Source: Vulcanisaeta sp. JCM 14467 (GTDB taxonomy: Archaea > Thermoproteota > Thermoprotei > Thermoproteales > Thermocladiaceae). Taken from it: DNA of 64,000 bases. The notes below the pieces were generated by a model. It was not told the DNA's origin. It ran no database searches and saw nothing but the letters and a program-made list of their open reading frames with translations. The position numbers and the translations under genes are program-made. Below, in pieces: positions 1-22,126 of the stretch (position 1 is the first letter of the stretch; each line of letters begins with the position of its first letter). The stretch is from contig NZ_BBDM01000002.1 of NCBI RefSeq assembly GCF_001316245.1, positions 62,001-126,000 on the forward strand, given 5' to 3'.

Positions 1-276
1 CTCTTGACGTAATTGAGCCAGTCTATTCTCCACCTCAGCAAATCGTTGTTGCGATCTAGATTGCAAATCACTAAGCACCTCATCCCTCAACCTCTCAATC
101 CTATCAATCATGAACCTAAGCAGCTCCCTCTTAACCTCCTCCTTATTGACGCTGGTCTCTCTACCCTCTAAGTACTCCATCAACTCCTCCTTGAACTCCA
201 ATAATCGTTGGTCAACGTACTCCTTAAGTTCTAAAATCCTCTTCTCCAACACCTCATTGGTCGTTCTCTTGGGCAT
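1..276 (-). CDS. Coiled-coil protein, partial at window edge
   Basis: An open frame starts with ATG at 276 and runs off the left edge after 92 codons. It begins MPKRTTNEVLEKRIL and is almost entirely charged helix rich in Glu, Arg, Lys and Leu, as in a coiled coil. It overlaps the end of the upstream gene by about 23 bases, suggesting one transcript. No catalytic motif is visible in the part present. It may be the N-terminus of a coiled-coil nuclease or scaffold like the protein at 53.0-53.8 kb, but that is a guess. Confidence 0.6.
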   Translation of the reverse strand, partial: MPKRTTNEVLEKRILELKEYVDQRLLEFKEELMEYLEGRETSVNKEEVKRELLRFMIDRIERLRDEVLSDLQSRSQQRFAEVENRLAQLRQE

Positions 277-666
277 TACTTGCCACCCTCTTCCTGATTA
301 TGTACGTTCCTCTATTATTGCTGTAGACTACCTCGAACCCCAACCTATGCAACTCGCCATGTAAGTAAAATGATAGGGCGATCATTGCGCCACTAACCTC
401 ATTCTCGGGCAAGTACTTGGCCAAGAACTGCCTAATCCTCGCAGTGGTCAACTTGTAGGTTCCATCATCCTTCGAACATTAACCTATACTTAGGCAGCTC
501 CTCTCTCACGAAACGCCTAAACAGCCTAATCGCAGTATCCAAATACTTCGGCGTAAAACCATCGCTTCGCTGCTTCACGCGGGCCTGCGGTGGGCCTGGG
601 CGCCCTTGAATCGCCCCCGAGGAATTCACCCCAGCGAGCCCGGGGTGCTCTACCTCAGGGGTTCAT
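254..666 (-). CDS. Small uncharacterised protein, reading frame broken twice
   Basis: The intact 3' frame (254-451) has no good start codon. Allowing single-base shifts at 469-470 and in the GGGG run at 658-661, one protein of about 137 residues can be read from an ATG at 666, about 27 bases after a TATA-like TTAAAAAT. It has a Gly/Pro-rich N-terminal part, a basic helix (RLFRRFVREELPKYRLMFE) and a compact alpha/beta C-terminus ending ASNAQENDQ. The shape suggests a small winged-helix-like nucleic-acid-binding protein, but I do not recognise a family. It sits just upstream of the coiled-coil gene at 1-276. Both shifts sit in short runs of one base and look like assembly indels. Confidence 0.45.
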
Positions 667-690
667 TGCTCCATAATTAATTTGAGGATT

Positions 691-700
691 ATTTTTAAGG
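691..700 (-). promoter_or_regulatory. TATA-like promoter for gene 254-666
   Basis: On the minus strand this reads CCTTAAAAAT, about 27 bases before the ATG at 666, which is the element's usual leaderless spacing. Confidence 0.4.
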
Positions 701-711
701 GCGGGTTTGGG

Positions 712-1232
712 CTAGAGTAGCCTGGCCCTGCAGGGTGTTGGCCAGCTGTACCTCCTGGCGAGGTTTTCATCTGCGTTGTAGCCCGATGCCCTTAGTATTG
801 CGTGGACTGCGTATGACGTCTTCCTCGCCTGTTTATGGAGCTTCCTCGCGATGGCCAACTCCTTGATGCCGTGGAGGTAAGCTATGTTCCTTACGATGCT
901 CTCGGCATTCATGGCCTTGAGTGGGACTGCCCTTGGGTCTGCATTGACTACCTGTACGTGTACCTAGGCAGGCCAAGCCTGGTGAGGAAGTATGAGACTG
1001 CGTCCATGTACTGGCTTGAGTATGCGGTCCAGGGCTTAATGCCCTGCTCAGCCAACCCGGCCAGGTGTGTTAATTCATCCGCCTTGATGATTGTGTACTT
1101 GATGTTGCCCACGCTCACGGTGCATGAGCCTGGATCCACGTCGATTATCGCGGCTCCAATCATTGCGGAACCGCCAAGTATTAGGGCCTTTAGTTCTGCG
1201 TGGAATACTACGGCGTCCCAATGCATTCCCAA
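712..1232 (-). CDS. Uncharacterised element protein (one frameshift)
   Basis: The frame 948-1232 starts MGMHWDAVVFHAELKA and ends at RYTYR. A single-base shift near 950 joins it to the frame that includes 712-912 through VQVVNADPRAVPLKAMNAE, giving about 173 residues. The N-terminal half looks like a small beta sheet (SCTVSVGNIKYTIIKADEL). The C-terminal half is a basic helical region with a helix-turn-helix look (IKELAIARKLHKQARKT). No known family is recognised. It overlaps the upstream gene by 25 bases and is probably co-transcribed with the HerA-like ATPase. It could equally be two small genes. Confidence 0.5.
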
Positions 1233-1504
1233 ACACCCTGGAGTAATGCGTTGAGTGACCTGTGGGTGAAGCCCGACTCCCTAATCACGCCAAGGTCCAC
1301 GCCGTAAGCCCTCGCACATTGGCTGAGTGTCGTGGCTAGTGGCTTTGGCTTTATTGCCGTGTCCACCGTGACTAACAACTCGTGGTACGGCTTCTTCTCT
1401 GCCGTCATATCTAGTAGTTGCTTGTTGGTTATGTGTAGGAACATTAGTGCTGAATGCGGCTGAGCCCAGTGGGGCGGCATTAAACCGCCCATGTTCTTGT
1501 TCAC
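1208..1504 (-). CDS. Uncharacterised small protein downstream of HerA-like ATPase
   Basis: The 98-codon frame starts at a GTG that overlaps the stop of the ATPase gene (GTGA), a coupling arrangement that supports translation. The protein begins MNKNMGGLMPPHWAQ and has an alpha/beta pattern with an Asp/Thr-rich strand (LLVTVDTAIKPKPLATTL). No family is recognised. The coupling suggests that it works with the ATPase at 1501-2544. Confidence 0.55.
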   Translation of the reverse strand: MNKNMGGLMPPHWAQPHSALMFLHITNKQLLDMTAEKKPYHELLVTVDTAIKPKPLATTLSQCARAYGVDLGVIRESGFTHRSLNALLQGVWECIGTP

Positions 1505-2544
1505 GTCGTAGACTCATTCCTCCCAAAATAAGCCTTGAACCCGACCTCCCTAAACAGCACGTTCTCTGGCTTGTGGAACATGGTTGGGAAGACTATGAAT
1601 AGTTTGTTCATTGAGATGAACTCCTCCGGAACATCGAATATTGACTGCGTGATTAGGGCGAAGTAACGCCTATAATTCCTGCCAATCCTAACCGAGGTCG
1701 TTAGTGTTGACTCGCCTAGGCGGAAGTATAAATGGGCTTCGTCGATTATGAATATCAGGTTTCTAGCGTCAACCGCATTCGCGGTCGCCAGGAATGAGAG
1801 TACGTAGAACCACCTCTGGACTGGGGTTAACCACCTGAGGTCTATGCCTATTGACCTGCCCCTCAACTCACCCTTGAACAGCCTGTTGATTAATGGGTGT
1901 GTTTTCTGGAATATCCAGTGGTTGAAGTAAGAGAGCCTCCTTATGAGGCCCCTTGCCGAGTTGACCTCGTCCTCCCTGGCGATGGCGCCGGACTTGATGG
2001 CGTCGCTTAGGTACTTGATGATGTCGGTGATTGAGATTGGGGGCTTGGCCTGCTGTTGCCCCTCCTGGCCCTCCTCGCCTTGCTTGGTTAATTCGTTGTA
2101 TGTAAACATGAACATGTACTCCATGGCGGGCGTCATCACGTAACTAAGCCTAGGGAACCTCATGGTCAAGACCTCACTCAGCACATCGAGGATTTCAATG
2201 CCATCTAAATGGTCAAAGGGGTTGAAGGGGTACGGGGCGTGGTAGTCCGTGAATCCCTCGTAGTTACCAGCGACATCAAACACAACCACCGCGTAGTCGC
2301 TCGGCACATTCATCAACGCATTCATGACAAGCCTAGTCTTACCAACACCCTTAGGGCCAACAATGAAGGCGTCAGTCTCGTTAAGAACCATGAAGTGGAA
2401 GAGGTGCTTGGCGGGCTCGTTGATCATCATTTTAAATGTTAATGCGCCTATCTGGGCCTGTCCATTAACCTGATCCACCACTTGACCAACCTGATTCGCC
2501 TGACCCACCTGAGGCTGGTTTACCCTCCTCCAGAACATCACCAC
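1501..2544 (-). CDS. HerA/TraG-like P-loop ATPase
   Basis: This 347-residue protein has a Walker A motif GPKGVGKT near residue 63, a Walker B motif LIFIIDEAHLYF near residue 265, and a later ALITQS segment like the sensor strand of HerA/FtsK-class motors. The N-terminal 35 residues are Gln/Val-rich and low in complexity. Proteins of this class pump or couple DNA and protein through membranes, for example the VirD4 or VirB4 motors of type IV secretion. It is the second such motor in the element, the other lying at 8117-10202, so the pair may act as coupling and assembly ATPases. The start is GTG; ATG a few codons in is possible. The 5' end overlaps the upstream gene by 80 bases. Confidence 0.8.
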   Translation of the reverse strand: MVMFWRRVNQPQVGQANQVGQVVDQVNGQAQIGALTFKMMINEPAKHLFHFMVLNETDAFIVGPKGVGKTRLVMNALMNVPSDYAVVVFDVAGNYEGFTDYHAPYPFNPFDHLDGIEILDVLSEVLTMRFPRLSYVMTPAMEYMFMFTYNELTKQGEEGQEGQQQAKPPISITDIIKYLSDAIKSGAIAREDEVNSARGLIRRLSYFNHWIFQKTHPLINRLFKGELRGRSIGIDLRWLTPVQRWFYVLSFLATANAVDARNLIFIIDEAHLYFRLGESTLTTSVRIGRNYRRYFALITQSIFDVPEEFISMNKLFIVFPTMFHKPENVLFREVGFKAYFGRNESTT

Positions 2545-3391
2545 TGTGGCTGAGGCTCTTTAAAAGGCTAAGCGCCTTTGTCGTGATCCTAACCGTCAAG
2601 TCACCCGGGTTGTATGTCATGTACCCTATCGTGATTGCCTTGAGCACTGCGTCCTGGCTCCTGAGCATGTCAGTGAGTGACTTCAGCGTAGCCACGCCGC
2701 CCAGGTCCCTCACGAGGACCTCCACTGCGTTGACCACGTCATCATCGATTTTTGGCTCCCTGGGCTCTGCCAGGTTGAAGGGTCTCGCTGGGTACTCAAT
2801 GAACCTCCTACTCACGCCAATGACCTCGACCTTGCTGTTGAAGTCCGTCGTCTCCCTGAGTTCGTCAGTCCTTGGTACCCTGATCAATCTCCTCACTATT
2901 TCGTCGAAGATGTAGAACCTGTTTGGGTCGAAGACGCTGCTGTGTATCGCCACGTCAACGCCCAAGGCCTTCAATTGGGCCAGGGCGTCGGTGAGCCTTG
3001 GCCATAGGTCTGAGTAGAACTCGGTGTTTACCCTCAGGGCTGACGCCAGGGCTAAACCAATAATCGTCGATAACGGCTCGATAGTCGGTATCGGCGCTGA
3101 GTACAGGCTGGTCCTTAGTTCACCGACATCGTAGTTGTTGGTCAGCTCGACCGAGGCGGGTAGCGCAAACCCGCAGTTCTCAAGGACGTCGCTTAGCCTA
3201 GTCACGTGCGTTGCATCGCAGTTAATGCCCAACTCATGAAACACCCTATTAATCAACGCCCTACCCAGTGGCGTCAACCCAGCATTGGGCACACCGTCAA
3301 GGGGCTTCGCATTGCCACTCAATCTGAAGGTTACTCCCCTCTCGATGCCTTGATAGTCCAGTCTCCCCAGGATTAATTTAATCATCGCCAT
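2465..3391 (-). CDS. Uncharacterised protein with C-terminal winged-helix-like region
   Basis: The frame encodes 308 residues and starts ATG GCG ATG at 3391, about 20 bases after CCTTAAATT. The first 200 residues are mixed alpha/beta without a recognised motif. Residues about 220-280 resemble a winged helix (VATLKSLTDMLRSQDAV then YNPGDLTVRITTKALSLLK), and the tail is Gly/Ser-rich. It precedes the HerA-like ATPase and overlaps it by 80 bases in another frame. Both overlapping ends are low in complexity, so one boundary may be wrong. A role as an ATPase partner is only inferred from position. Confidence 0.6.
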   Translation of the reverse strand: MAMIKLILGRLDYQGIERGVTFRLSGNAKPLDGVPNAGLTPLGRALINRVFHELGINCDATHVTRLSDVLENCGFALPASVELTNNYDVGELRTSLYSAPIPTIEPLSTIIGLALASALRVNTEFYSDLWPRLTDALAQLKALGVDVAIHSSVFDPNRFYIFDEIVRRLIRVPRTDELRETTDFNSKVEVIGVSRRFIEYPARPFNLAEPREPKIDDDVVNAVEVLVRDLGGVATLKSLTDMLRSQDAVLKAITIGYMTYNPGDLTVRITTKALSLLKSLSHSGDVLEEGKPASGGSGESGWSSGGSG

Positions 3392-3470: not shown

Positions 3471-6400
3471 CTACGGCTGCTGGCCCTGCGTTGGTTGATT
3501 AGGCTGCGCCCGGCCCTGCAGTTGTTGCTGCATTTGCTGGATTGCTGATTGTGTGTTGTGCGCCCAGTCGGCCGTTGCCACTGCCTTCGCGGTGAGTGCC
3601 AGGGCCCTCAGCTCCTCTGCTGCCCTTAGGAGTGGTTCCCTCATTGTTGTGTCTAGGTCGATTGCGGTGTTGCCGAAGGGCATTTTTAGTGTGGTCGAGC
3701 CAACCAGCTTCTCCAACTCCTCGGCCACCCTCAGGAGTTGTGGTAGTGCGTTGATGTTTATGTTCTTCGTATTGCCAATGCTCGCCAGTGCCGCTAGCAC
3801 CTTGTTCGCCATGTCGATGAGCCTGTCAACTGGCTCCAGCACTGCCCTCAACCTCTCGATTTCCCTGTTTAGGTCCTGAACCCTCTTGTAGTCGCCGGCC
3901 TGCCATGCCCTGGCTAGCTCGTTCTGTAGCTCGTCAAGGCGTTGCCTGGCGTCTCCGTAGGCGGTGTCCAGGGTGTGTAGTGCTTCCTCGATGTGGTTGT
4001 TTATGCTGAAGTCCAGGGTGTCCACGACGTGCTTGAGTAGGTCCACCTCCATCTTTGGCATGTACTTCGTGATTAATTGGATTGCCTTGTCATCATCCAT
4101 GGACCAGGGCGATATTAACTCGCCCGGCTTGGCGAGTCTGGATCCCTCGCTCTCGTAAACCGCCTTCCTGACTTCTCTGAAGAATTCTCTGAATGCCGCT
4201 GTGTCGTTTGCGTTGATTATCTTCGCCGCGAGTTCAGGGGCCTTCTCCTCGATTTTGTCGATGTCGAGTTTCTCGTGGGTGTACAACTGCCTTAGGTCCC
4301 TGGCCAATTGCCTGAGTTCCTCAAGCTCCTCCCTAGTGAGTTCTCCCTTGACGAATTTCTCATTCAAGTCCTTGAGGTGCTCCGCAATTGCGTCGCTGAA
4401 TTTATCACCGAGGACTTCCTGGAGCATGGATAGTAACGCGGCCCCTGGGGTCATCCTCATGGTGAGTGCCCTGTCTATGACTGCCTTGGCCGTGTGGGTG
4501 TTGGTCGCTGGCTGCGGTAGTTTGCCCGGCTCCGCCTTGCCGACTGCGACCTCGGCGAAGTGGTGGTCCTCAGTGATTGCTAGGTGGAGTGCCATTGCCT
4601 TGTCTGCTATGCCGTCCTTTATGGCTATCTCGGCTAGTCTCGGGAATACCTTGTTGAAGGACTCCCGGCCAAGGGCTGTGGATCCCTCCCTAATGAACGT
4701 GCCCAACTCGGCAATGAGTCTCTGGTACTCCCTGTAGTCCCCGGCCCTCTCCCTGACCCACTCACCGTAGTTCAAGGACCTTAGGGTGTCAATGGCTGTC
4801 TGGCGTATGACCTCGGGTCCCTAGACGCTGCCTGGAGTGCCCTCTGCTCTAGGGCTTCCCTGTACCTTGCGTTTACGAATGGGCTTAACTCACTGGTTAA
4901 TTCCTTAATGCTTAGTTTGTTGATTAGCATTAACTCGTCATTGCTTGCCCCCTGGTTGATTGCCTTGTTTAGCCTGTCGATGTGCCTGGCCCACCAATCA
5001 TTTATTGTTGTGATTGCCCTGTAGTTGTCCCTGAAGTAATCCATGAGTGGCTTGAGTGCGTCGTAGCTCAGGACAACGCTGTTCCTCATCGTGTGTAGCA
5101 CGTCGGTGATTGTCCTTAAGTCAGCCCTGGCCTGCTCCTTAACGGCTGGATCCCTCATGTACCTGGGCAGTGCCTGCCTCAAGTGAGTACTCAATGCGTT
5201 GTTTAGGATCTCCTTCACCTTCTCGTGCTCGATGTCCATTGCCCTCGCTAGATCCAGCGTTGCGGACCAATCACCCCTGAACAACGCCTGCACTGCCCTT
5301 GCCGCTTCCCTGACAGACCTCATTGACTCCTCCGCCTTCTCGTGTGATTGGATGATGTAGGGGGCTAGGGCTGCTGCGACTAGTTTTGCCGTGTCCACTG
5401 CGTTCATGCCGCCGTGTCTCAGGCGTACTGTTAATTCCTCTGCCAGGTCTAGCCCGACCCTCCTGGACGTGATGAGTGCTGGGTGTAGGTCCCCACACTG
5501 GCGAGTGGTGCCATTATGATTGCATTCATCAAGTCGGTCAGTAACTCCCCCTTGTTCACCCTCTTTATGTCGCCCCTCCTGGCTTCGTAGACATGCATGT
5601 CACGGTCCAGGGTCTTCGTGGATAGCTCCTCGTAGAGGAACCTCCTGTCCATCTCGGTGGTCATCCTGAGCGCCCTATACGCCCTCCTGAAGTCCCTACT
5701 CCTAAGCGCGCTTAGGAGTTCTTTCTTTCCCTCCTCACTGAGGAGCTTCATCCCAGTCACCTCGTAGAGCCTACCCCTCATGCCCAACTCCCTGGCCCTT
5801 GGGTACTCCACTGCGGCCTTGGCAAGGACTGCCCCGGCCCTGGCTAGCCTGGTCCTCCACACCCTCCCCTCCTGCTCGTAGGTTAATGCCTTGTCCTCCG
5901 CCAGTTCTTTTGCGACTCGTAGTCCCGTGCTCAGGGGTGACGTCAATATCCTGAGTGGGGTTAGGCGTGGTACTATTTCCCTCCCCACAAACGCCTTGGT
6001 GTCGTGGAATGCCTTAGTGATTGGGTTTACCAGTCTCGCAACCCTCCTGTGCCTGCTCACCCAGTGCCCAACCCTCTCCTGGATCGCCCTAGTCCTACTG
6101 CCCACCGCCTTCCTCACCCTCCTCGTTATTCTGTTTAGGATCCTGCCCATACCGCCTATGCGTAGGTACAGTACTAGTGATAGGTCGTAGATGACATTGT
6201 TCATGACCGCCCATGCTGGTGCCATCGGTGTTGGGAATCCTGCGATCCACATGGCCCCGTCCAGAAGCCCAAAGATCATGACTGACTCCGCCAGCCACCT
6301 TGGTACGAATCCACCCACTGCGAAGAACAGCTTCCTGAAGTACGACCAACCACTCAGCAATTCCTGGCTCCCAACGACTATTGAGTTAATGACCCAGGAG

Positions 6401-7362
6401 ATGCTCGGCGTCAAGCCAAGTGGGACCTTGGCGTACCAGGGATTGCCGATGTTGCCGGTTATCGTTATTGAGCCTGGGACTACCACTGTCTTATTGGCGT
6501 AGTTGGTGCATGTTATCTCGATTTCTTTTTGTTCGTAGCCGGTTGGCGCCGGGCTTGGTAGTTTTAGGGTTAGGTTTTTGCCGACCCCCGTGATGTTCCT
6601 ACCAATGGTTATCTCCTCATTGAGCTTGTTGATTAGTGCCTTTAACTCGTCCTCCTCACTGCCTATGTTTACTTCCCTGTAGAGGGTGGTGTTTAGGACT
6701 GTGTATTGGCACGTGGTTGAGTTACCTACCTTGCTCGGTAGTTGGACTTGGGCGTTGCTTGCGAAGTACCAGAGCAGTGCCGATGTAGTGCCTGGGTAGC
6801 AGATGGTTTCGTTTAAGCCCGTCCTTGGGTTGGTTATGTTTATGCAGTGCTCCGGCGGTATGCTTATTGTGAAGTTTATTGTGACGGTGTTGTTACTGGT
6901 CTCGACGGTGGATTGGGTTGGTGGGCTTAGCCACTTCCAGGCTCCCGTGTAAACCACTGTATTGTTTATGGTTGCCGTTATTACACTGAAGGGTGGGTTC
7001 CCGAAGTAGATGACCTCGGCGTATGTGGCGTTGCTGTTGAGGTACTGCGGTGAGTCGCATGGTTCGGTGGCGCTCTTGTTGTCGATATATGTGAGCAATA
7101 GGCAGCCGTGGCCTGGGTTTATCGAGAGCCACAGGAATGTCACGTTGCTAATGCTTGGGATGCCAAGGGCGTTTACTGGGGTTTCCGAGTCAGTGAATGC
7201 TGTGAAGTTAGTCACTGGGTACTCAATCAGCACCATTGCCTTCCCAACAACCGTGTAGTTGATGCCGTATAGGGTGCCGGAGACCAGGTATGGGTATGTG
7301 GAGTTTAGTATTAGGAAGGCCCTCACCTTGGTCCTTGGTGCGTTGTTCTGTAGCCACTGCAT
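3471..7362 (-). CDS. Very large membrane and coiled-coil protein of the transfer locus (two frameshifts)
   Basis: Three open frames (5449-7362, 4781-5407, 3471-4775) join into one protein of about 1,297 residues if one base is restored at 5481-5483 and one at 4815-4817. The bridging peptides read naturally (SVGTYTPALITSRRVGLDL; SRDPEVIRQTAIDTLRSL), and both sites are short C/G runs. Residues 1-320 are a Thr/Asn/Cys-rich region with many N-x-S/T sites and look extracellular. Hydrophobic segments follow around residues 325-400, then long basic and charged helices with coiled-coil character and a Gln/Pro-rich tail. The layout suggests a scaffold spanning the membrane with a large cytoplasmic arm. 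The start overlaps the upstream stop (TAATG). No homologue is recognised; three separate genes remain possible. Confidence 0.6.
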
Positions 7363-8012
7363 TAGGCATTCGTCTCATTCATCACCTTGGCCTTGGTGAA
7401 GGCCAGTGCGTCGTGGGCTGCTATCGTTGCTATGAACATGATTGCCAAAGTCAATATGAACAAAGCAACACCAGCCGCCCTCGTCCTGTCGAAGACCATT
7501 AGGAGCACGGCAATGCCGATGACTACCGGCGCCACTGCGTAGCTGAACCAGGCTAGGTAGGCTATGGTGTGCAACACGGCAATCATTACCTGGCTTACGT
7601 GCATCACTGCGAATACCACGTCCATTATTGGGTCTATGATGAAGCCCATGTTCTGCAGGACCTCGAACTCCTGGAGCGGGAGCACGCCAATGCCTAGGCT
7701 GCTTATTGACGCAATGATGTTCAGTATGAACATCCCAATTGCCCACGCGAGCCCAGCCTTGGCCGTTGCCATGAACATCAAGCCCCAACCCTCCTCGGCC
7801 ACCTCAACCTCGCGGTAAAGCACGAGATATGTTGGGGATCCAGGCGATGCTATGCCGAAGAGTGCCGGTAGGAAGTAGGCCAGTACTAGGGCCGCACCCA
7901 CCGCAATGAACCTCCTCACCTCGATGCCTCCCCTTATTACACCGTAGGCGATTACCGCGATTGCCTCAATGGCTATGGCGTACTCAAGTAATTCGGCTGG
8001 TAGGTACATCAT
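7362..8012 (-). CDS. Polytopic membrane protein of the transfer locus
   Basis: The 216-residue product is very hydrophobic, with about five or six membrane segments (near residues 10-28, 34-53, 83-107, 127-150, 152-175 and 178-198). It starts MM about 22 bases downstream of the promoter at 8030-8038 and is coupled to the giant protein gene through a TAATG overlap. Polytopic proteins of this size beside VirB4-type ATPases are often channel components (VirB6/CedA-like), but no diagnostic motif is visible. The membrane location is confident; the channel role is inferred from its neighbours. Confidence 0.65.
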   Translation of the reverse strand: MMYLPAELLEYAIAIEAIAVIAYGVIRGGIEVRRFIAVGAALVLAYFLPALFGIASPGSPTYLVLYREVEVAEEGWGLMFMATAKAGLAWAIGMFILNIIASISSLGIGVLPLQEFEVLQNMGFIIDPIMDVVFAVMHVSQVMIAVLHTIAYLAWFSYAVAPVVIGIAVLLMVFDRTRAAGVALFILTLAIMFIATIAAHDALAFTKAKVMNETNA

Positions 8013-11989: not shown

Positions 11990-12445
11990 TTACGGCGTTG
12001 GGCTTGCTGCGTGTTGTAGCGCCGTGTGTAGTAAGTTCCATATCTGCACAAACTCGCCCTGGAAGATTTGCCATGCCGTGGATGCCGGGTCCACGCCTTT
12101 GACCCCCACCAACTGGAATATGAGTAGTACGGCGTACATGGCCAGCCAAAAGCCGAGGGAGCCAAATATTATCTTCTTCCCGTGGCTGAAGACCTCGTTT
12201 AGTGCGGCTGTCCTCCCCCAACTCGTGAAGTGGAACATGTACTCGGCGAAGTGGTACATTATCGACACCACGGCGACTATGAACGCAATGCCCATCCCCA
12301 ACTCCACGTACCCAATTATTGGGCTTAGGATGCCGGTGGCAATTTCATTGCCGAGTTGACTGGCGCTGGGCAACCCAGTGATGTTCCCAGTGGCGTTCCC
12401 TGCCTGAAGTATTATGCCCAGTGTTACGTGTATTGGACCCATCAA
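11990..12445 (-). CDS. Small membrane protein, possible pilin or VirB-like component
   Basis: The 151-residue product has an exported-looking N-terminus (PIHVTLGIILQAGNATGNIT) and two to three hydrophobic helices near residues 38-62 and 88-112, separated by a polar turn with SHGKK. Conjugative pilins of the Ced and Ted systems are small two-helix membrane proteins, so this is the best candidate for the pilin subunit here, although it is longer than the known ones. It has its own promoter at 12462-12471 and sits between parA and a polytopic VirB6-like protein. The pilin role is inference. Confidence 0.55.
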   Translation of the reverse strand: MMGPIHVTLGIILQAGNATGNITGLPSASQLGNEIATGILSPIIGYVELGMGIAFIVAVVSIMYHFAEYMFHFTSWGRTAALNEVFSHGKKIIFGSLGFWLAMYAVLLIFQLVGVKGVDPASTAWQIFQGEFVQIWNLLHTALQHAASPTP

Positions 12446-12474: not shown

Positions 12475-13456
12475 TTAGAGTGGTAGTACGTCGACTATGA
12501 CCTCGTCGAGTATTCGGTAGAGTGCGTATGATGCGGCCAGTGCCATTGCCAGGACTACGTCCACTGTCACGTCGTAGGTCTGCATGGTTAGGGCTTGTTG
12601 GTAGCCCTGGTTGAAGAGGACGCTGAGGAAGCCAACGAACTGGGATATGTCCGTGGTCCAGCCCTTCGTGAGCGCCCCAAGCTCCGCCAGTGGCTTGGTT
12701 AGGGCTGCAACCGTGTATGCCGTGAGTAGTGGGCCTACTATGGCGACTATGATGAGGAAGGCGACTATGAATGTTCCTATTGACCTGGTCTGCCTAACAA
12801 TGACCAAGCCAATACCCAGCGGTAACAACCACCAGGCGTTGTAGGCTATGAGGTTCAGTGCGTATATGAATCCTAAATTGATGATTGTGTAAGTTATCAT
12901 CTGCTGGAGGTACCAGGTGGATTGTTGGGCGTACCAGCCGAGGGGCGACGTCCATGGGAGTACTGACAAACCCACGACACCACCCCAGAAGTGCCCGTAC
13001 CAAGCAGTCACGTTGTCGAAGTACTGCCTAGCCATTAGGTAGCCCCACTGGAGCATGCTCTTCGGGTCAGTGGCGTTTGGTAGGTAGTTGGCGAGTGCCG
13101 TGCCGTTGTTGATGGGCACTGCCGAGGCGATTTCATGCGTCAGCGTGGGTAGGAAGGTCCCTGGGGACTCGAGGAGTGCGTAGAGGATTGCCAACATGGC
13201 GGATCCAACGACCACGTCCATGATTTCGTCAATGCCCTCCCTACGGATGTCCGGGGTTGGGCCTGCCAAGTACTTGATGATGCCGTGCATCAACACGGCC
13301 ACGGCAATGCCCCGTAGAGTGTGGTCCCCAATATCGTGGGCACTAACTGGAGTAGACCCATCAAGCCCTAGCCCAACTAACTTATTAAGGGGCTGGCTCA
13401 ATGTCTCGGCAAAATCAACCGCAGACCGCCTAATAGGACTGCCTGGAGTTTTCCAT
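12475..13456 (-). CDS. Polytopic membrane protein, VirB6/CedA-like channel candidate
   Basis: The frame to 13401 starts at a weak TTG. A one-base shift at the start of GAAAA would extend it to an ATG at 13456 (reading KTPGSPIRRSAVDFAETLSQ). The protein has six or more membrane helices (near residues 45-65, 135-150, 170-200, 200-230 and 270-300 of the longer form) and an Asn/Thr-rich outer loop. A polytopic protein next to a small pilin-like membrane protein, ParA and a VirB4-type motor is the arrangement expected for a VirB6/CedA-type DNA channel. Membrane topology is seen in the sequence; the channel role is inferred. Confidence 0.65.
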
Positions 13457-13484: not shown

Positions 13485-15161
13485 TTAGCCGCAGTTGAGC
13501 CTTAGGTTGATGTGGCTCCTTAGGTTGCTCGGTAGTAGATTCCTCACTAGGTCGGCCACCAGGTACTGCACCGCCTCGCAGATCACCCCCACATCCCCGC
13601 TCTCAACCGCCCTAAGCAGGTCCCTAATGCCATTGCCTACCGCCAGTAGTGCGTTAACGGTGTTTGGGTTGCCCAGTAACTCCATTAAATGCTTGATTGT
13701 TGTTTCATTCCCGTTATAGGTTTCAATGACCCCGAGCAGTGCGTTGGCAAACCCCTCATCGCCAAGGTGCCTCGTTAATTCATCGAGGAGTCTCGCGTAA
13801 CTACCCATGCCCAGAGTATTAGCCAACACGCTCGATAAAACCAACGAAGCCTCAAGCATCGCCCTAGCATCATTTCTCAACGAAGCTCTAGATAACTCAC
13901 TGATGTGAGTGCATGTATCCTCACTGCAGGCAAACTCGAAGCTCCTCCTAAACACCACGTCGGCCTTCGTCTCAGCACCCTCGGTATCCTCAGCCCCACC
14001 CTCCTCATTCTCAGTTACCTCACTTACTCCCTTACCCATCCCTACCTCCCCACTGCCTTGCCCTGGGCCCGCATCCTTAATGAGAGGTCTTACGGCGTCG
14101 GCAATAACCGCATTGGTCCCATGCGTTGGCTCCCTAGCCTGCACCGTGGTGCTTGGCGCCTTCGCTCGATGACCTCGCCATACCTCTCACTTATCAACTC
14201 CACAACCCTATCAACCTCACCAACCTCCAGGTACCTCAGCACCTTAGTCACCAAGTCCCTGGCACCGCCCTCATTACCCCCATTGACGAGCTCAACAACG
14301 GTCCTGGCGAGCATCTCGAGACTCCTCTTACCAAGTATGGCTAGGGGCTTTAGGTTGCTTGAGTCGATGTTCAGCTTGTTCGATATGGCGTTTATGTACA
14401 GCCTAACCATGGGCCCGGGCTTCCCCTCACCATCCCTCGACCTCCTCATGTTATCGATAATGACCATGACCTCGTCAGCATTCCTCACCAAATCCCTCAA
14501 CTCCTTGATGAATTGGTCATTGAGCACGGCGGATAGGTACCTATGGATTTCACGCCCACTCAACCCTGTTATCCTGGCCAACTCATCCACGAGGAGCATT
14601 ATGTCCCTCCTCTGCTCAAGCCCCTCAATAAACCTGAGCGCCCCATCCTTACCATCCCTCCTTGTGATCTCGAGGACTCTGTGCTTTATGTAGTCCTCAA
14701 CGAAGCTAAGCCTAACCTCACTATGCCTCCTACCACCATAGACGATACAGAATAGCGCCGCGGCCGCCTTAGCCAAAAAAAAGCTAGGAACGGCTCATTA
14801 AACTCACCCAAGTCCCAAACCTCGGCCCTAACGCCTCAAGCACATCCCTCCTCCCATTACTGTACATGAATAGCGCCGCCTCGGCAACGCAGGTCGGTGC
14901 CAAGATGACCTTAACGCCTAGGACTGTCGCAACGACCACCGGGTTCAGTAGCATGTTTCCGCGGGAGGCCAAGTCCTCGAGGTGCCTCTCAACGACGATC
15001 CTCTCCTCAGGGGTGTGGCCGCATGGGCATGGGTGCCATTTAGGCAGGACGTAACTCCTAATAACATCAATAAGCCTATAATCACGCCTACCCACAACCC
15101 TAAGCCCAAGTCTCTCAACAACCTTACTAACCTCCTGAGCGACATTGGCGCTGGTAGCCAT
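13485..15161 (-). CDS. Large uncharacterised helical protein (two compensating frameshifts)
   Basis: Three frames (14784-15161, 14090-14776, 13485-14144) join by single-base shifts near 14783 and 14148 into one protein of about 558 residues. The joints read well (WVSLMSRSSFFLAKAAAA; IERRRQAPTVQAREPTHG). The first part carries a CPCGH motif near residue 45, a possible metal site. The middle is helical and charged. The C-terminal part is helical with an acidic Glu/Gly-rich linker and ends NLRLNCG. No family is recognised. Separate genes are possible, but the 54-base overlap and lack of starts argue for one. Confidence 0.5.
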
Positions 15162-15349: not shown

Positions 15350-16123
15350 TTACTGAGCCCCGAGTATTAGTTCCCTTAGTTTGTCGAGTAGTTCCTCCCT
15401 CCCCATTATGCTTAGGTAATTCCTCGTGTCCTCCTCGCCCGCATTTATGAGTATTAGGTACGTCATCGCCAGATCAATCAGTGTCTTGGTTGGGTAGTTC
15501 CTACCAGCCGCCCTAGCCATCCTACTGACCTCAACGTAGGCCTGGTACGCCTCATCGATTGTGAAGACGCCCTGGGCATTCCACTCACTGATTGCCCGAC
15601 CAATGAACTGCCTAATCAACCAATCCCTACCAAAGACCTCATTAATCGCCTCCTCAACAATGGACCTCTCACCCAGGTAACTAACGCACCCCACATCCAA
15701 CACGCACTCAAGGACCCTCAAAAGCCTCGACGGACCCTCCCTCCACCTAGCCATGAGCAGGCCAATGAGCCTGTACACCTGGGACCTATGGACGCTGAAT
15801 CCCCTCTTGGCAAAGACCCTCATAGCCCCATCAACCAACTCATTAATCGCATCCTCAACGCCCCTAAACTCATCGACACTACTCGCCATGTCAGCCCCAA
15901 ACTTCCTGATTAAACCAACTATTTTAGGGTTGGGCAAAACTTTCGCACCACTATACACACTAGTATTACTGAAGGCCCTCGGGTCATACCTGGCCGGCCT
16001 AAGCTCAGTGCCCTCGATTAATGCGTACTCACTAAGCACCAGGCCAGTGCCCAACTCGACTAGGTAACCCTCATCATTCACCACAACCCTCGCCCCAGAC
16101 TCATCGGGTTGACCACTCATCAA
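15350..16123 (-). CDS. Possible divergent TFB-like (cyclin-fold) transcription factor
   Basis: The 257-residue protein begins with a region that parallels the B-finger and linker of archaeal TFB: EGYLVELGTGLVLSEYALIEGTELRP, here split as EGYLVELGTGLVL and EYALIEGTELRP, compare the family pattern GLVLEE..ID.GPEWRAF. The N-terminal zinc cysteines are absent. The rest is helical and could form two cyclin-like repeats (residues about 75-150 and 165-250). If correct, it could direct the element's own promoters. The match is by eye and weak. The start is ATG ATG at 16123, about 20 bases after a TATA-like TTATTAATCCC. Confidence 0.4.
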   Translation of the reverse strand: MMSGQPDESGARVVVNDEGYLVELGTGLVLSEYALIEGTELRPARYDPRAFSNTSVYSGAKVLPNPKIVGLIRKFGADMASSVDEFRGVEDAINELVDGAMRVFAKRGFSVHRSQVYRLIGLLMARWREGPSRLLRVLECVLDVGCVSYLGERSIVEEAINEVFGRDWLIRQFIGRAISEWNAQGVFTIDEAYQAYVEVSRMARAAGRNYPTKTLIDLAMTYLILINAGEEDTRNYLSIMGREELLDKLRELILGAQ

Positions 16124-16242: not shown

Positions 16243-17216
16243 TCAATGAAGGCCATCATCACTTATCGAGTACTTCGTTTCGAAGCCTGGTGGTAGGCCT
16301 GGGACGTCTAGGCTCTTAGGACTCCCTCGTTCTTGGCTTTCGAGGCCCTGACCATGAGCCACCTGGCATTCACGGTGTGGGCGAGGACGTTCCCACCCAC
16401 TGGTAGTTTGACCTCGATGAAGCCTGCCGGTGATGTCATTACCTGGTTCGTGTAAACCACCAACATCCCAGCCCTAATGGTTAAACGCCTAAGCCAGTCT
16501 AGGACGTAGTGGAGGCGTTGCTGCCTCTCCGCCAACCTCTCCCTACCCCTGAATTGCGCTCGGTAGAGGGCTGTTATTGAGTCAACGATGATTACTTTAG
16601 CATTGTTGCTTAGGACGAGGTCCGCGAGCCTAAGCTTAATGAAGTCCTCGAGGTCGTCAACGGTCGCCGGATTGTAAACATATAAATAATTATTAATTAA
16701 TTTGTCGTAATCGATGCCAAATCGATTACACATATTCCTAATTAAATTAGAATAAAGGTACTGGTCAATGGTCTTCTCAGTATCCACGTAAACGACTCTG
16801 AAGCCGAATTGACTAACTGAGGCAATGGCCGTCTGCAGGGCCATGATGGTCTTACCAGCGAATTCGCCGGCGAATTCGTGATGATGCAAATCTAAGCCAC
16901 CAATTGCGTTGTCCAAGCCCTCAACGCCGGTCTTCAGAGTGGGCACCTTACCCAGGGCCTCAATCCTCTCCTTCGCGGTAGTCGCAATTGGCGACTCGGC
17001 CAGTAACTCCCTGGCCGCGTTGATTAAACGCCTCGGGAGCTCCGTGTCTGGTGAGCCGAGTAGTTCCTGAAGCTCCTCCGCGTTGAAGAGTAGTATATGC
17101 CTGATCGTCTTGACGCCAGCACTTAACAACCTATCAACGGTCTGCCTACTGAAGCCAAGCTCAACCAATTTATCAAGCTCTGAATCACCAACCGAATCAG
17201 CCCTCCTCCTAGGCAC
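16243..17216 (-). CDS. RadA-like RecA-family recombinase paralogue (one frameshift)
   Basis: The order of parts is that of archaeal RadA: an N-terminal helix-hairpin-helix region (LVELGFSRQTVDRLLSAG), then GVEGLDNAIGG, an ATP-binding core and Walker B VIIVDSITALY. The P-loop reads AGEFAGKT where RadA usually has GEFGSGKT. It fits the [AG]x4GK[ST] pattern only with Ala first. The open frame stops at 16308, but one base restored at 16311-16312 gives a normal RadA end (LDVPGLPPGFETKYSISDDG) to 16243. The GTG at 17216 lies 24 bases after CCTTAAAAGG; a TTG at 17264 would extend it. It may handle transferred DNA. Confidence 0.75.
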
Positions 17217-17253
17217 ATTACCCAGCGAGACCAGCCTTTTAAGGGGTGGCTGG

Positions 17254-17735
17254 CTAGAGCTCAATGCACACGTCGAATTCGACCTCGTAATCCCCGTAGT
17301 CCCTGACTATCCTAATGCAGCTTATCCGAACTGGATCTTCAATTGGCTTCAACCCGTCCCTTATACTCGTAGTCACACCACCCTGATGCCGAGCCTCGAT
17401 AGGGCGTCATTGATGTATTGTCCCGCTAAGCATTGCCTTGGGTAGCGCCAGAAGGGTTTCCCACTGCCGACTGCCCTCAGCTCGATTACGCCTATCAACG
17501 TTGGTCTCGCCGACACCGCGGACTCGATGTTTAGTATGGTCTCGAGCCTAATGAGGCCTTGGCTGATGGCGCTTTTGTATGCCCTGACTACGTTGGGTGG
17601 CTTGGCAATCCTCTCAACGACCAATGCATAACGCCCGGACTCAACCAGGTTGACTATGTTTTGGGCGTTGTCGGGAGGCCAGACAAAACTTCGATCCCAG
17701 CAGAATTGTCGCTTGACCCTGCCGTCAATCAACAC
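17254..17735 (-). CDS. Uncharacterised alpha/beta protein (one frameshift)
   Basis: The frame starts GTG TTG at 17735, five bases after the upstream stop. It runs to 17373, where a one-base shift in GTGGTGTGA lets it continue VTTSIRDGLKPIEDPVRIS to a stop at 17254, about 160 residues. It has a repeated small-strand character and conserved-looking Trp/Arg (FVWPPDNAQNIVNL). No family is recognised. It precedes the RadA-like gene and probably shares its transcript. Confidence 0.5.
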
Positions 17736-17740: not shown

Positions 17741-17917
17741 TTAGGCTATTTGAGTCTCCTGACTGTCGAAGTGCATTGGGCTTGTTGAGGCCGCTAGGAT
17801 TAAGTCCCTAGTGATTAAGGCTATGGAGCCGACGCCGATGACGACCTGAGCCGGAGGCCTGAAGCCGTAGACGTAAATTGGTCTCTTCCTAAGTAAGCCA
17901 ATTGTTAGTGTGAGCAT
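17741..17917 (-). CDS. Small uncharacterised protein, first gene of the leftward operon
   Basis: The longer frame reaches 18082, but the ATG at 17917 lies about 25 bases downstream of a clear TATA box (CCTTTTAAGC, 17937-17946) and gives 58 residues beginning MLTLTIGLLRKRPIYVYG. It is hydrophobic, with a Gly-rich strand (AQVVIGVGSIALI). It has the right position to be the first gene of the leftward operon from the divergent control region. No family is recognised. Confidence 0.5.
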   Translation of the reverse strand: MLTLTIGLLRKRPIYVYGFRPPAQVVIGVGSIALITRDLILAASTSPMHFDSQETQIA

Positions 17918-17944
17918 CACTTGGTTGTTTTGCGGGCTTAAAAG

Positions 17945-18206
17945 GCGTGCCCGGATGCCGTATTGCACGGTTACGGTTAGCCATAATGCATTGTTCGTGA
18001 ACCACGAACATAAGGGGCGTGAGCCACGCAACGCATGGTCTCGGTAAACCATAACGCACGTGGGTGTTGGTGAGGGAGTCATTAGCCGGTGCGTGGCTTC
18101 TCATGTGTTGTGGTCTCGCCTCACCATGCGTTATTGGTTGTGGGGGTTGTATGACCCTCCCGTGGTTTCCGTAACTCACGGTTTCGAAAAGCCGTAATTC
18201 ACATTA
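17945..18206. promoter_or_regulatory. Divergent intergenic control region rich in inverted repeats
   Basis: This gap separates the leftward and rightward gene blocks. It holds an 8-base palindrome TGTTCGTG/CACGAACA (17992-18010) and GCGTG/CACGC (18017-18029). An inverted pair consists of CAACGCATGGT near 18029 and ACCATGCGTTAT near 18123. There are related copies ACCATAACGCAC, CATAATGCAT, CGTAACTCACGG and CGTAATTCACA. It looks like a multi-site operator or a replication or transfer origin. Confidence 0.5.
17992..18010. repeat. Palindrome with 8-base arms
   Basis: TGTTCGTG and CACGAACA flank a three-base loop. This is the longest perfect palindrome in the divergent region and a plausible binding site for the ribbon-helix-helix protein encoded at 18240. 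Confidence 0.6.
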
Positions 18207-18239
18207 ATGGCCCTTTTAAAGCCTGCCTCCAACTGTGTC

Positions 18240-18575
18240 GTGAGGTATAGGAGTGTGAGTATTAGGGAGGATGTGTATAGGAGGCTTGAGGGCTTCGCCT
18301 CAATGAGGGGCTTGTCAATGAGTGATGCAATTGCCGAGCTACTCAGTGAGCACCAGTCACTAAGCGAGATCAAGGAATTACTCAGGCAATGCCTCGATAA
18401 GTTGGGTAAACAAACAACAACCACGCTGACGAGTCAGCAACCAATCAATACTCACGGGTCTGCTAGGGAGTCTGGGGAGACTACTGAGGCTCCATTAATT
18501 GGCTTTGAGGATAATCCCTGGGTTCAAATCATCCGTGCCAGGGTGGTTGGCGGTGAAGGTGGAGAAGGACGTTGA
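18240..18575 (+). CDS. Ribbon-helix-helix (CopG/Arc-like) regulator
   Basis: The likely start is GTG 18240, 24 bases after CCTTTTAAAG, although an ATG lies in frame at 18207. Residues 1-40 (RYRSVSIREDVYRRLEGFA then MSDAIAELL) show the beta-strand plus two-helix pattern of ribbon-helix-helix DNA-binding proteins. The remainder is a Thr/Gln-rich linker and a Gly-rich tail. It is the first gene of the rightward block and lies next to the repeat-rich control region, so autoregulation is likely. Confidence 0.65.
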   Translation: MRYRSVSIREDVYRRLEGFASMRGLSMSDAIAELLSEHQSLSEIKELLRQCLDKLGKQTTTTLTSQQPINTHGSARESGETTEAPLIGFEDNPWVQIIRARVVGGEGGEGR

Positions 18576-19137
18576 GGAGTTGGTTGTTGAGAGACTCAAG
18601 GTGAAATTCTCTGGTAAGTCTGGTTCGTGGGTTAGGAGGGCTCTTAGGAGGTTTGAGGGTGGCTCGGTTAGGCAGGTTGGCGATGGCGTCTGGGTTGTGA
18701 GTGGTGACCCGAGGCTCGGTGATAAGTACCCAACCTACGTGGTTAGGTTCAAGGACGGTAGGTACTACTGCTCGTGCTTCGAGACCAGTTGGGGATTACG
18801 CAGGAAAGCCGAGGTCTGCACGCATATCGCTGCTGTGATCCTATACAGGGAGTACTCAAAGTTAACTCAACCAATATACGCAGCAGTACTGACAATGGAA
18901 TGCGACGGCGACTACCACCTTGAGACCCTGGACAAGGACGTAAAGGTTGTTAAGCAGGTTAGGGCCTTAAGCACCGACCTACTCAAGCCGAGGTATAAAG
19001 TGACGTACATCATAACGAGTGAGGAGCCGAAGACCGTGAGGGTTAGGTACGTGTGTGGTGGTGAAATGGGTGAGCAGGAGGTGACGCTGAGTAGGGTGTT
19101 GAGGTACTTGGTTGAGTTGGTTGTGGGTGGGGTTTGA
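18553..19137 (+). CDS. SWIM zinc-finger protein
   Basis: The protein contains YYCSCFETS followed about 18 residues later by VCTHIAAV, the CxC...CxH signature of the SWIM zinc finger, preceded by the typical strand pair (YVVRFKDGR). SWIM domains bind DNA or proteins and occur in element-borne and recombination-linked proteins. The open frame reaches back to 18499, but GTG at 18553 is a better start given overlap with the upstream gene. The C-terminal half has beta structure (KVTYIITSEEPKTVRVRYV). It is translationally linked to the RHH gene. Confidence 0.7.
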   Translation: MKVEKDVEELVVERLKVKFSGKSGSWVRRALRRFEGGSVRQVGDGVWVVSGDPRLGDKYPTYVVRFKDGRYYCSCFETSWGLRRKAEVCTHIAAVILYREYSKLTQPIYAAVLTMECDGDYHLETLDKDVKVVKQVRALSTDLLKPRYKVTYIITSEEPKTVRVRYVCGGEMGEQEVTLSRVLRYLVELVVGGV

Positions 19138-19717: not shown

Positions 19718-19729
19718 CGGCGGTGAACT

Positions 19730-20762: not shown

Positions 20763-21109
20763 CTCTGGTATTCCCCAGCCCTGGCTATCCTTTCGATTTC
20801 CTCATTTATTTCACGCATTACGTCCTTGGGTATTGGGTACTTGCTGTCTATTATCCTCAACGTCCACATCACCCAGCCGTAGTCCTCCAACATGTAGGCT
20901 ATGGATACGCCGTTGTGCCTAACCATAAAGTCTTTTAGGTCCAGCACGAAGTCCCTTATCGCTATGAACCACGGCTCCCACCCCACCCTTATCCTCCTGC
21001 TCCCGATTACCAACCAGCGGCCGTCCATGTCCTCCCTAACGCCGATTGCGACTTTGATTGTTTTCCCACCTTGGGGAGGAACCCCAGGGGTTATTTTACC
21101 CGTACTCAT
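20759..21109 (-). CDS. Uncharacterised protein, upstream member of a gene pair
   Basis: The 116-residue product begins MSTGKITPGVPPQGGKT and contains RWLVIGSRRIRVGWEPW, a helix (IAIRDFVLDLKDFM) and a charged C-terminal helix. It is coupled by a 4-base overlap to the gene at 20388-20762. No known domain is recognised. It is probably an element accessory gene; transcription converges on the DUF1874 module. Confidence 0.55.
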   Translation of the reverse strand: MSTGKITPGVPPQGGKTIKVAIGVREDMDGRWLVIGSRRIRVGWEPWFIAIRDFVLDLKDFMVRHNGVSIAYMLEDYGWVMWTLRIIDSKYPIPKDVMREINEEIERIARAGEYQR

Positions 21110-21137
21110 CAGGTAACCCAGGCAGTGGGGGGCAGGG

Positions 21138-21627
21138 TTAATAAGGGCTTTGGCGCCGAGCCAGGCAATCCCTGGCTATGGCTACCCTCCTCACGGGCCA
21201 AGCCCTATCGCTAACCTTGATGGGTTGTATCATTTCGTTGATTACCGTGAGTGGGTCGTAGTCCCTACTAAGCACGATGCACCTGCCCCTTTTGAGGCAC
21301 TCCCTTGCTGCCCTTATCTCGCTGGTTCGTCCTCGGCGAGGATGAAGCCAGGCCCAACTCCCTGAGCCACCTGACCCTAGACTCAGCCACTGCCTTATGC
21401 TCGGGCCTCGAGTAGTCAATGACGAAAATGATACTGGGTTTCAAGTAGCCGTAGTCGATGGCGAGCCTAACATTGGCGAGGAAAGCCCTCGGGTCCTTGA
21501 GACCATACGTAATGCTGGCCAGATCAATCATTAGGTAATCGTAAAGACCATTAACCAAGTCGGGCAATAAGCCCCTCACGACCTCCCTAATACACCTCGA
21601 GTAAACTCTCCTAAGCTTGGGGTCCAC
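21138..21627 (-). CDS. PIN/NYN-like nuclease (two frameshifts)
   Basis: The start is GTG 21627, 24 bases after CCTTAAATT. The first frame carries MIDLASITYG and a Rossmann-like SIIFVIDYSRPEH strand. After single-base shifts near 21344 and 21325 it continues GFILAEDEPA and EIRAARECLKRGRCIVLSRD to the stop at 21138. This order (acidic strand, helix, strand ending in Asp, later SRDYDPL) matches PIN/NYN-domain ribonucleases. It is the last element-type gene before the broken MFS gene, and could be a toxin or RNA-processing enzyme. Confidence 0.5.
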
Positions 21628-21647
21628 GGTGATAATGGCAATACTGA

Positions 21648-21656
21648 ATTTAAGGG
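21648..21656 (-). promoter_or_regulatory. TATA box for the PIN/NYN-like gene
   Basis: The minus strand reads CCCCTTAAATTC, about 24 bases before GTG 21627. Confidence 0.45.
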
Positions 21657-21789
21657 GTTGGTGTTGGAGTGTTGCACTTTAGGTTGTTTAGGAGTCGGTA
21701 CGTGGTGTCCCTGGGCTGGTTTGGAGGGGATAGAGGAAGAGGAAGAAGTGGCATAGTTTTTGTGCTGTTATGCATAGTTTGAATTTTAG

Positions 21790-22126
21790 GAGGTGCCCTA
21801 AACCCAGCACTAAGTCCCATGAAGAGACTAGCCACGTATTCAACCCACATGGAGTTGGCAATGCCAGAGATTAATGATGAGGCCGCTAAGCCAATCAGTG
21901 ATGTTGTCACGACATACCTAGGGCCCACCTTATCGGAGATCACGCCAGCAGGTACCTGAACCACCACGTAGCCTATGAAGAAGAGGGAGAAGACGATACT
22001 ATCCTCAACAATGCTTGGCTTCAATGACGAGTACGCAGAGACTATGCCCCACGCCAACCTGGAAAAGTAACTCATGAAGAAGGATGCTGATGCGACTCCG
22101 ATTATGTAAATGTCCCTGGCCCTCAT
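21790..22126 (-). pseudogene. Truncated MFS transporter (N-terminal fragment)
   Basis: From ATG 22126 the frame encodes about 108 residues of a major facilitator: a first helix (DIYIIGVASASFFMSYFS), a second helix with VVVQVPAGVISDKVGPR (the loop 2-3 signature GxxxDxxGxR) and a third helix. After MGLSAG similarity stops, and the frame runs on as low-quality sequence to 21650. The loss of the remaining nine or so helices marks a deletion or insertion, probably the right edge of the element. Confidence 0.6.

Follow-up and report, generated by a model that had tools for sequence, protein, structure and literature searches.

Do the DNA-exchange machines of the Thermoproteales belong to their hosts, or do they still travel between them? 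The question is raised by a 64,000-nucleotide stretch of a Vulcanisaeta-type genome (hereafter the window), the left part of which encodes, by homology, a Thermoproteales exchange of DNA (Ted) machine. Ted has been put forward as a conjugation machine captured by hosts for the exchange of their own DNA, and the sections of Beltran et al. (2023; PMC9905601) drawn on here describe it as domesticated and chromosomal, Vulcanisaeta included; because a Ted machine in this genus is thus already in print, its presence is not the novelty. New here is that the Ted block lies on a 27,077-bp insert splitting a major facilitator superfamily (MFS) transporter gene and that further copies occur at other sites. 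Our analyses suggest, with a probability of roughly 0.75, that the block is a mobile element carrying a Ted machine, and in this genus the machine appears still to travel on such elements; that the element transmits itself is less certain than that it moves. If Ted machines do sit on elements that insert, multiply, and degrade, at least some of them would still be selfish conjugative elements, and domestication would become a question testable lineage by lineage.

The window corresponds to positions 62001-126000 of contig C2 in G000, a 2.44-Mb, 25-contig, 81.6%-complete metagenome-assembled genome (MAG); window coordinates equal C2 positions minus 62,000, negative values lying to the left of the window. 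The comparison set comprised 12 genomes of the genus (G000 and 11 others) and 45 of the order, and a covariance-model scan covered 46 genomes. G027 encodes the pilin of Pyrobaculum calidifontis letter for letter over the compared stretch and serves as the reference Ted locus. The Ted block continues past the left edge of the window to C2 position 56,725 (window -5275), and the guanine-plus-cytosine (GC) content per 2-kb step is 50.5-55.4% over positions 1-22000, as against 39.5-50.2% over 22001-64000.

The block resembles a Ted machine

An initial annotation, made from the letters alone, had taken the block either for an element with a Ted-like machine or for an expanded relative, and had noted motor ATPases, two polytopic membrane proteins, and a small two- or three-helix membrane protein on one strand; the genes that it named are all present on the minus strand (Table 1). 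By homology the block is a Ted machine, and homologues of TedA, TedB, and TedC were each found. The small membrane protein, the tedC product of 151 amino acids (aa) and three helices, resembles the conjugative pilin TedC. When a pilin profile of 11 sequences (A6, TedC itself excluded) was compared with the PDB, the sole match at E<=10 was 8dft (E 1.5e-10), which the consulted sections of PMC9905601 give as the TedC pilus of P. calidifontis. The single sequence gave no useful PDB match, and a smaller, seven-row profile (A3) had TedC (8dft) as its second-best, non-significant match (E 0.99); the signal became clear once Pyrobaculum and G010 sequences had joined the profile. Structure prediction, which the annotation had suggested, pointed the same way: the model (mean pLDDT 69) placed 8dft at the top of the Foldseek list (probability 1.00, E 0.21, TM 0.50/0.65).

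Of the two polytopic proteins, both of which are borne out, one is the giant membrane protein described below and the other, of 308 aa, is TedA-like. Its alignment (A4) matched that of the Pyrobaculum TedA family (A9) by hhalign with a probability of 82.9% and E 9.2e-6 over 244 columns, and the two best Foldseek matches of its model (pLDDT 72) were TrwI/VirB6 structures of R388 (8rt9 at the top; probabilities 0.99 and 0.98, E 0.03). The PDB profile search with A4 alone returned spurious matches only, and no Foldseek match of either TedA or TedC reached E<=0.001. The ATPase read from position 8117 with a DPHGEY motif is real and corresponds to TedB/VirB4, but the open reading frame (ORF) with that motif is 8883-10202, starting at 10202; the gene is a single one in two frames (8883-10202 and 8117-8824), as the single 701-aa ORF of G007 indicates. 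Its product matches DUF87 in Pfam (2.7e-13) and, in line with the VirB4, HerA, and TedB comparison that had been proposed for it, the TedB of Ted loci: its pieces are 25% (1e-20) and 38% (4e-19) identical to that of G027, and it is 75% identical to that of G007 in the initial search. HerA-like, ParA, and recombinase genes lie together with this core.

The block thus shares TedC, TedA, TedB, the HerA-like and RadA-like proteins, and the product of 2465-3391 with the Ted locus of P. calidifontis, the ParA match being weak. It differs in gene order, with tedA upstream of tedC on the minus strand rather than downstream, and in the pilin, which is annotated with a signal peptide in P. calidifontis and starts differently in the window (compared by eye only). 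It also adds a 1444-aa-type membrane protein, a DEAD_2-type helicase, and a candidate structured RNA, and it lies inside a multi-copy insert that splits a host gene. An integrated virus or an ordinary plasmid, with HerA-type ATPases serving packaging or replication, would account for the PHROG matches of terminase type that the P-loop regions of TedB and of the HerA-like protein gave; we consider it extremely unlikely given the homologues of a pilin and a VirB6-like channel, the lack of any capsid-type match among the nine proteins scanned against PHROGs, and the lack of any match in phage, plasmid, or viral collections by scans that detect close relatives only (the first viral scan used the first 439 aa of TedB).

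The Ted block is an insert in a transporter gene

The ORF at 21650-22207 (minus strand) is the N-terminal part of the MFS protein (MFS_1 profile positions 2-104), and window -5372 to -5998 encodes the C-terminal part (profile positions 167-347). Among the 11 other genomes of the genus, six (G004, G005, G007, G008, G010, and G011) carry the gene in one frame of 378-389 aa; G002 and G003 hold pieces of it, G006 and G009 give weak matches, and G001 gives none. With eight loci aligned, the right edge of the insert falls at 21802 in six, at 21801 in one, and at 21907 in G011, and the left edge between -5276 and -5261. Over the 20 kb compared, G008 and G010 are collinear with G000 on both sides and have 86 bp where G000 has 27,077 bp. 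An exact uninterrupted site in two relatives, together with the Ted homologues, upholds the first proposal that an element carries the machine. Conjugation machinery therefore lies on an inserted, delimited element, and the block is not domesticated in the published sense: it is an insert, the site is uninterrupted in relatives, and there are several copies.

Since G000 is a repetitive MAG, the block might have been joined into the MFS gene by misassembly, and both its many frame breaks and the existence of repeats would suit that explanation. We regard it as very improbable, given that the MFS halves and their flanks are collinear with G008 and G010 and that the single-contig genome G004 has an analogous insertion. 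The incompleteness of G000 (82% complete) and its frequent frame breaks are nevertheless the main caveat: more than one frame is needed by four of six host genes on contig C9, by six of nine queries at the MFS flank (some of which are spurious ORFs), by 4 of 13 genes of the window copy, and by 6 of 11 genes of a second copy. Because host genes show such breaks just as often, we set aside, as unproven, the idea that the window copy is decaying.

Further copies in the genome and its relatives

The second copy in G000 has its TedB gene at C2:285-286 kb, and tblastn shows that its genes keep the same order from about 268.6 kb as far as the end of the contig at 294,438. Its left end interrupts cutA, the reading of which ends ...IIDGLKSLF; homology to G001 ends at 268,554, and the terminal motif described below starts at 268,577. 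The sole other cutA match in G000 is a C-terminal part at C1:13883-14125, beginning at about ...GVEEGSEALLVIK, and 17 residues are common to the ranges over which the two pieces align. They may be halves of one gene, or a second, damaged cutA may be present; if they are one gene, copy 2 may extend into the first 13.9 kb of C1. C1:1-14200 holds McrBC-like genes (PF10117, 5e-19) as well as specificity-like genes, type I methylase-like genes, and two ORFs of the radical-SAM type (1e-4 for the one tested), and this series ends at the C-terminal cutA piece. A partial copy lies on C13 (34.7-43.8 kb), where TedA, TedB, and TedC were not found in the 20 kb examined, and a fragment lies on C16 (25.7-34.4 kb).

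In G004 and G007, collinear elements occupy nearly the same place, beside a conserved locus of a tRNA, a RecA-like gene, and a membrane-protein gene that runs on without an element in G008, G000 (C9), G010, and G003 (C10). In G004 the host sequence ends at 958,875-958,884 and resumes at about 999,700-1,000,100, some 41 kb further on, and two host ORFs present at this locus in relatives were not found in G004. In G007 the left-hand host sequence ends at 122,232-122,241; the right-hand side was not found within 97-180 kb. On the relatives' sequence the two left junctions are separated by about 135-147 bp, so that either two insertions or a single one followed by loss may have taken place. Integration into the tRNA that adjoins both elements was considered and rejected, and the 69-aa tRNA neighbour and the 839-846-aa membrane protein were likewise dismissed as parts of the element, all three being host genes also found in G008, G003, G002, and, in part, G010 and G000. 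The ARAGORN call of this tRNA as 'Thr' is doubtful, since by eye its loop shows CAT. A prokaryotic Argonaute (pAgo)-like gene (611 aa, PADLOC 1.1e-24) and a 246-aa neighbour stand at G004:994218-996790, immediately to the right of the last core gene. G003 has TedB pieces on the short contigs C26, C27, C28, and C31 and a left-end piece on C33, and its two TedB copies are close to each other (91.3%).

Across the order, the pilin profile finds matches in 26 of 45 genomes; presence within the genus is sporadic (6 of 12), and in g5 the pilin occurs in 5 of 11. Three Ted loci, their gene stretches matching, occur in the single-contig genome G038, and G025 carries five TedB loci. In a TedB tree of 30 sequences and 620 columns, copies from a single genome are not always nearest to one another: the G025_C1 copy is paired with one G038 copy (96.0%) and G025_C7 with another (97.7%), whereas those two G038 copies are 61.7% identical to each other, a pattern that fits either several old resident lineages or repeated acquisition. 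In the loci of G038 and G025, both Pyrobaculum-type genomes, two stretches of about 223 bp stand in swapped order just before or at the TedB start, with cross-matches of 83-88%. Two adjacent TedB-like ATPases (571 and 702 aa) are encoded at G007:982418-986228 and in G004; no TedC or TedA profile match was found in the 18 kb examined around them, and the pair is possibly a fixed chromosomal relative.

Resident system or mobile element

Could the block be a domesticated chromosomal Ted system, serving the exchange of host DNA and moved here by ordinary chromosome rearrangement? Its gene set is that of published Ted loci, G004 and G007 share a site, and the pilin occurs in all five genomes of genus g2, for which the data fit a fixed system. 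Such a system would not be expected to form an exact insert in a gene that is whole elsewhere with both flanks collinear, nor to be present in one genome as two TedB copies and two partial copies. Moreover, the copies within G000 are less alike than copies of different species, the window TedB being 74.5% identical to that of G007 and 59.4% identical to that of copy 2, and the profile search found no pilin in several near-complete genomes (e.g. G028, G029, G031, and G032). Together, these data make a domesticated system quite unlikely.

The reading of the block as a mobile element has its own difficulties. The g2 genomes have the pilin as a fixed system would, and the sharing of an element site by G004 and G007, nearly identical in position, could possibly reflect vertical inheritance; among all genomes examined, no common site was found of the kind that the initial annotation had linked to a fixed chromosomal locus, while its ATPase and small membrane protein matched Ted-locus genes and TedC. 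The integrase and attachment (att) repeats that it proposed to look for in the left flank did not materialize: there is no direct repeat of >=10 bp at the insert ends, nor of >=13 bp across the wider flanks, and the insert has no match to PF00589, of which G000 (82% complete) has one, on contig C8. PF00589 was searched genome-wide, other recombinase families only among the scanned ORFs of the insert. These ORFs gave no relaxase-like Pfam match either; in archaeal conjugative plasmids, relaxases are not recognisable (PMC9905601). Finally, the scans described above revealed no related plasmid, phage, or IMG/VR contig. There is also no tRNA at the insert ends, ARAGORN finding none in L009 and one in the window, at 35375, to which Rfam adds another at 33464-33559.

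Element ends, the LGDG family, and a candidate structured RNA

The left junctions lie close to genes of one family, LGDG, with conserved LGDG and TDG motifs (alignment A8; e.g. C6:24328-25836 and C8:59202-60695). In four of the four cases measured, the junction is 10-122 bp from the 3' end of an LGDG gene. From the junction to the terminal motif CCGCGGCCGCCCCC there are 122 bp in the window copy, about 22 bp in copy 2, and about 10 bp in G007; in G004, where the motif is absent, 37 bp separate the junction from the LGDG stop codon. The LGDG gene's own terminal motif is CCGCGGCCGCCCCCTYTGTGGG. As a 22-mer with <=2 mismatches, the terminal motif occurs at 13 places in G000 (none for the reversed control) and is present in 4 of 12 genomes, and DNA similarity between LGDG copies starts within a few bases of it in most compared pairs, some reaching about 23 bp further. 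LGDG protein matches number at least 21-26 in seven genomes of the genus, lower bounds since 25 candidates were scored in each, as well as 13 in G005 and 8 in G001; none was found in G006, G009, and G011. The family is thus mobile-looking and independent of Ted, and G011 has a Ted locus without LGDG genes. An identification with LAGLIDADG was considered from by-eye resemblance, one member reaching E 0.12 (LAGLIDADG_WhiA), and was set aside because the other Pfam matches are weak and unrelated (best E 0.003) and the profile retrieved only designed helical proteins and chance matches from the PDB. No Pfam match links LGDG to PaRep/PaREP2b.

At the right end of the window copy lies a dispersed repeat, unit B, which matches 9-10 other places in G000. 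Where the arrangement is undisturbed (C8, C6, and C4), an LGDG gene lies immediately downstream of unit B, both on one strand, and the window element therefore looks either inserted between the two or, conversely, like cargo carried between them. A stretch of 108 bp at C8:37331-37438, placed between unit B and an LGDG gene, matches the right-end core gene and is possibly a relic of another element.

The nearness of the left junctions to LGDG 3' ends, the right-hand unit B of the window copy, and the dispersal of both families would also be expected if the Ted genes were passive cargo, moved within the genome as LGDG and unit-B repeats recombine or transpose the block, and unable to transmit themselves. 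We hold this to be somewhat unlikely: no unit B turned up at the right ends of the copies in G007 and G004, and several divergent copies retain the entire machine, which points to selection for it.

Between the LGDG gene and the helicase gene is a GC-rich region (window about -2004 to -1585; G000:C2:59996-60415), with copies also at L050:12634-13064 and L044:8592-8902; the G007 homologue falls at about 125.6-125.9 kb. It is 82% identical between two G000 copies, compared with 64-80% in the listed coding pieces, and folds strongly (z -2.0 to -5.6 over six stretches), both strands beating shuffles. A four-sequence consensus gave no covariation support (covariation term +2.06), and Rfam at gathering scores returned tRNAs only. 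The covariance model built from three copies found three places in G000, two in G007, one in G003, and, weakly, one in G044; three of the matches are the training copies, those on G000 C13, G003 C33, and the second G007 place lie among element genes, and the G004 copy is too divergent for the model. The region may encode an RNA, serve as an origin of transfer or of replication, or combine the two roles.

Proposed mechanism and relation to known systems

By analogy with homologous systems, TedB, as a VirB4-like motor, would drive both assembly of the TedC pilus and passage of DNA through the VirB6-like TedA channel, with the giant membrane protein probably a further component of the envelope. 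Preparing single-stranded DNA and recombining it would fall to the ParA, HerA-like, helicase, and RadA-like proteins, as Beltran et al. proposed for Ted. The element would be transferred between cells now or have been so recently, and the LGDG family, whose 3' ends mark the left junctions, may be connected with integration, which would proceed without a tyrosine recombinase. The block would thus work like an integrative and conjugative element (ICE), although it is not filed as a classical one because it has no recognised integrase or att sites.

More tentatively, and with less than even confidence, we suggest that the Ted machines of Vulcanisaeta ride a new class of ICE without a tyrosine integrase, consisting of long cargo-bearing members of the LGDG family in which the LGDG 3' end is the left end and unit B lies near the right end, along with a structured RNA specific to the element and a cargo that can be exchanged, pAgo or restriction genes for example. 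If so, domesticated Ted systems would have derived from such elements or coexist with them. The LGDG genes at the junctions and the RNA candidate offer handles on integration and transfer in a little-known order.

The Ced system of Sulfolobales, likened here by description, has according to the literature a comparable set of VirB4-, VirB6-, and VirB2-like proteins but is chromosomal and UV-induced; according to the relevant sections of PMC9905601, the components of Ced and those of Ted cannot be recognised as similar in sequence. Integrated Sulfolobus conjugative plasmids of the pM164 type also provide an integrated crenarchaeal element able to mobilise nearby chromosomal DNA, as the part of PMC9899855 used here reports. 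pM164 is described there as a pNOB8-type plasmid the excision of which has been seen, whereas the window TedB has no match in the plasmid collection and the insert no integrase match. When genome contigs were scanned with TedB, mostly HerA-type matches and one Ted homologue, in P. oguniense, were obtained. The TedB and TedC candidates of that species (509.6-518.3 kb) lie inside a 485-530 kb region that is paREP2-associated and absent from P. arsenaticum (PMC3558965, Table 5); the portion of that article consulted makes no connection between the region and conjugation. In the literature searched, which was without preprints and most subscription journals, we found no account of a mobile element bearing Ted.

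Other genes of the insert

The accessory genes that had been recognised in the initial annotation (a HerA-like ATPase, ParA, a RadA-like recombinase, and a giant scaffold) are all present (Table 1). The HerA-like protein is weak by Pfam (DUF87, E 0.013) but matches that of the P. calidifontis Ted locus (G027:719314-720216; 31% over 278 aa, 2e-31), with homologues at 57-65% in G007, G004, G000b, and G011. ParA is well supported by its Pfam family; its match to the G027 protein is weak (2e-4 over 21 aa). The recombinase is 40% identical to G027:718226-719164 (8e-57) and 78-80% to its homologues in G004 and G007; it is of the Rad51/RadA type by Pfam, whereas Beltran et al., in the sections used, call the recombinase of Ted loci Rad50 (PMC9905601).

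Table 1. Features of the insert and its surroundings in the window
Feature	Position	Strand	Basis or remark
Window part of the 27,077-bp insert	1-21801		Whole insert G000:C2:56,725-83,801 (window -5275 to 21801)
Two small conserved element genes	948-1232, 1208-1504	minus	Homologues in G007, G004, C13 copy
HerA-like P-loop ATPase of Ted loci	1501-2544	minus	Pfam and G027 match
Conserved Ted-locus protein	2465-3391	minus	27%, 9e-11 to G027:714900-715655
Giant membrane protein	3471-8012	minus	Four ORFs: 3471-4775, 4781-5407, 5449-7362, 7362-8012
Putative tedB, VirB4-like ATPase	8117-10202	minus	DUF87 and homology to G027 TedB
Two small conserved genes	10307-10735, 10812-11105	minus	Homologues in relatives; also on C16 fragment
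ParA/MinD-family ATPase, VirC1-like position in Ted loci	11186-11941	minus	Pfam CbiA 7.1e-11
Putative tedC, VirB2/CedA1-type conjugative pilin	11990-12445	minus	Profile A6 against 8DFT; Foldseek 8dft
Putative tedA, VirB6/CedA-type membrane channel	12475-13401	minus	hhalign and Foldseek
Conserved element genes	13485-14144, 14090-14776, 14784-15161, 15350-16123	minus	Homologues in G007, G004, partly G000b
RadA/Rad51-like recombinase	16308-17264	minus	Pfam Rad51 7.6e-28
Conserved element genes	17373-17735, 17741-18082	minus	Homologues in relatives
Ribbon-helix-helix/antitoxin-like regulator	18207-18575	plus	VAPB_antitox 1.8e-4 (below curated cut-off); 44-47% in G007, G004
Right-end core gene, CxC...CxH pattern	18499-19137	plus	69% in G007 and G004
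Dispersed repeat 'unit B'	21163-21669	minus	Full form 193 aa at G000:C1:12420-13001
Interrupted MFS gene, N-terminal half	21802-22207	minus	C-terminal half at window -5276 to -5998

The giant membrane protein, read in several ORFs in G000, is one ORF of 1444 aa in G007 and has no Pfam or PHROG match. The conserved Ted-locus protein beside it has homologues at 65% in G007 and at 84% in the C13 copy. No Pfam match was found for the two small genes at the left of the window or for the right-end core gene, and none above the cut-off for the four genes between tedA and the recombinase. The cysteine-histidine pattern of the right-end core gene product is one that we take to be SWIM-like. The defence genes that had been expected in the block did not appear, none being recognised within the window part of the insert; defence-type genes do lie beside other copies, namely the pAgo-like gene of G004 and, if the cutA link is right, the restriction genes of copy 2. 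Outside the insert, the tRNA that Rfam matched in the window contains an intron and was missed by the bacterial run of ARAGORN.

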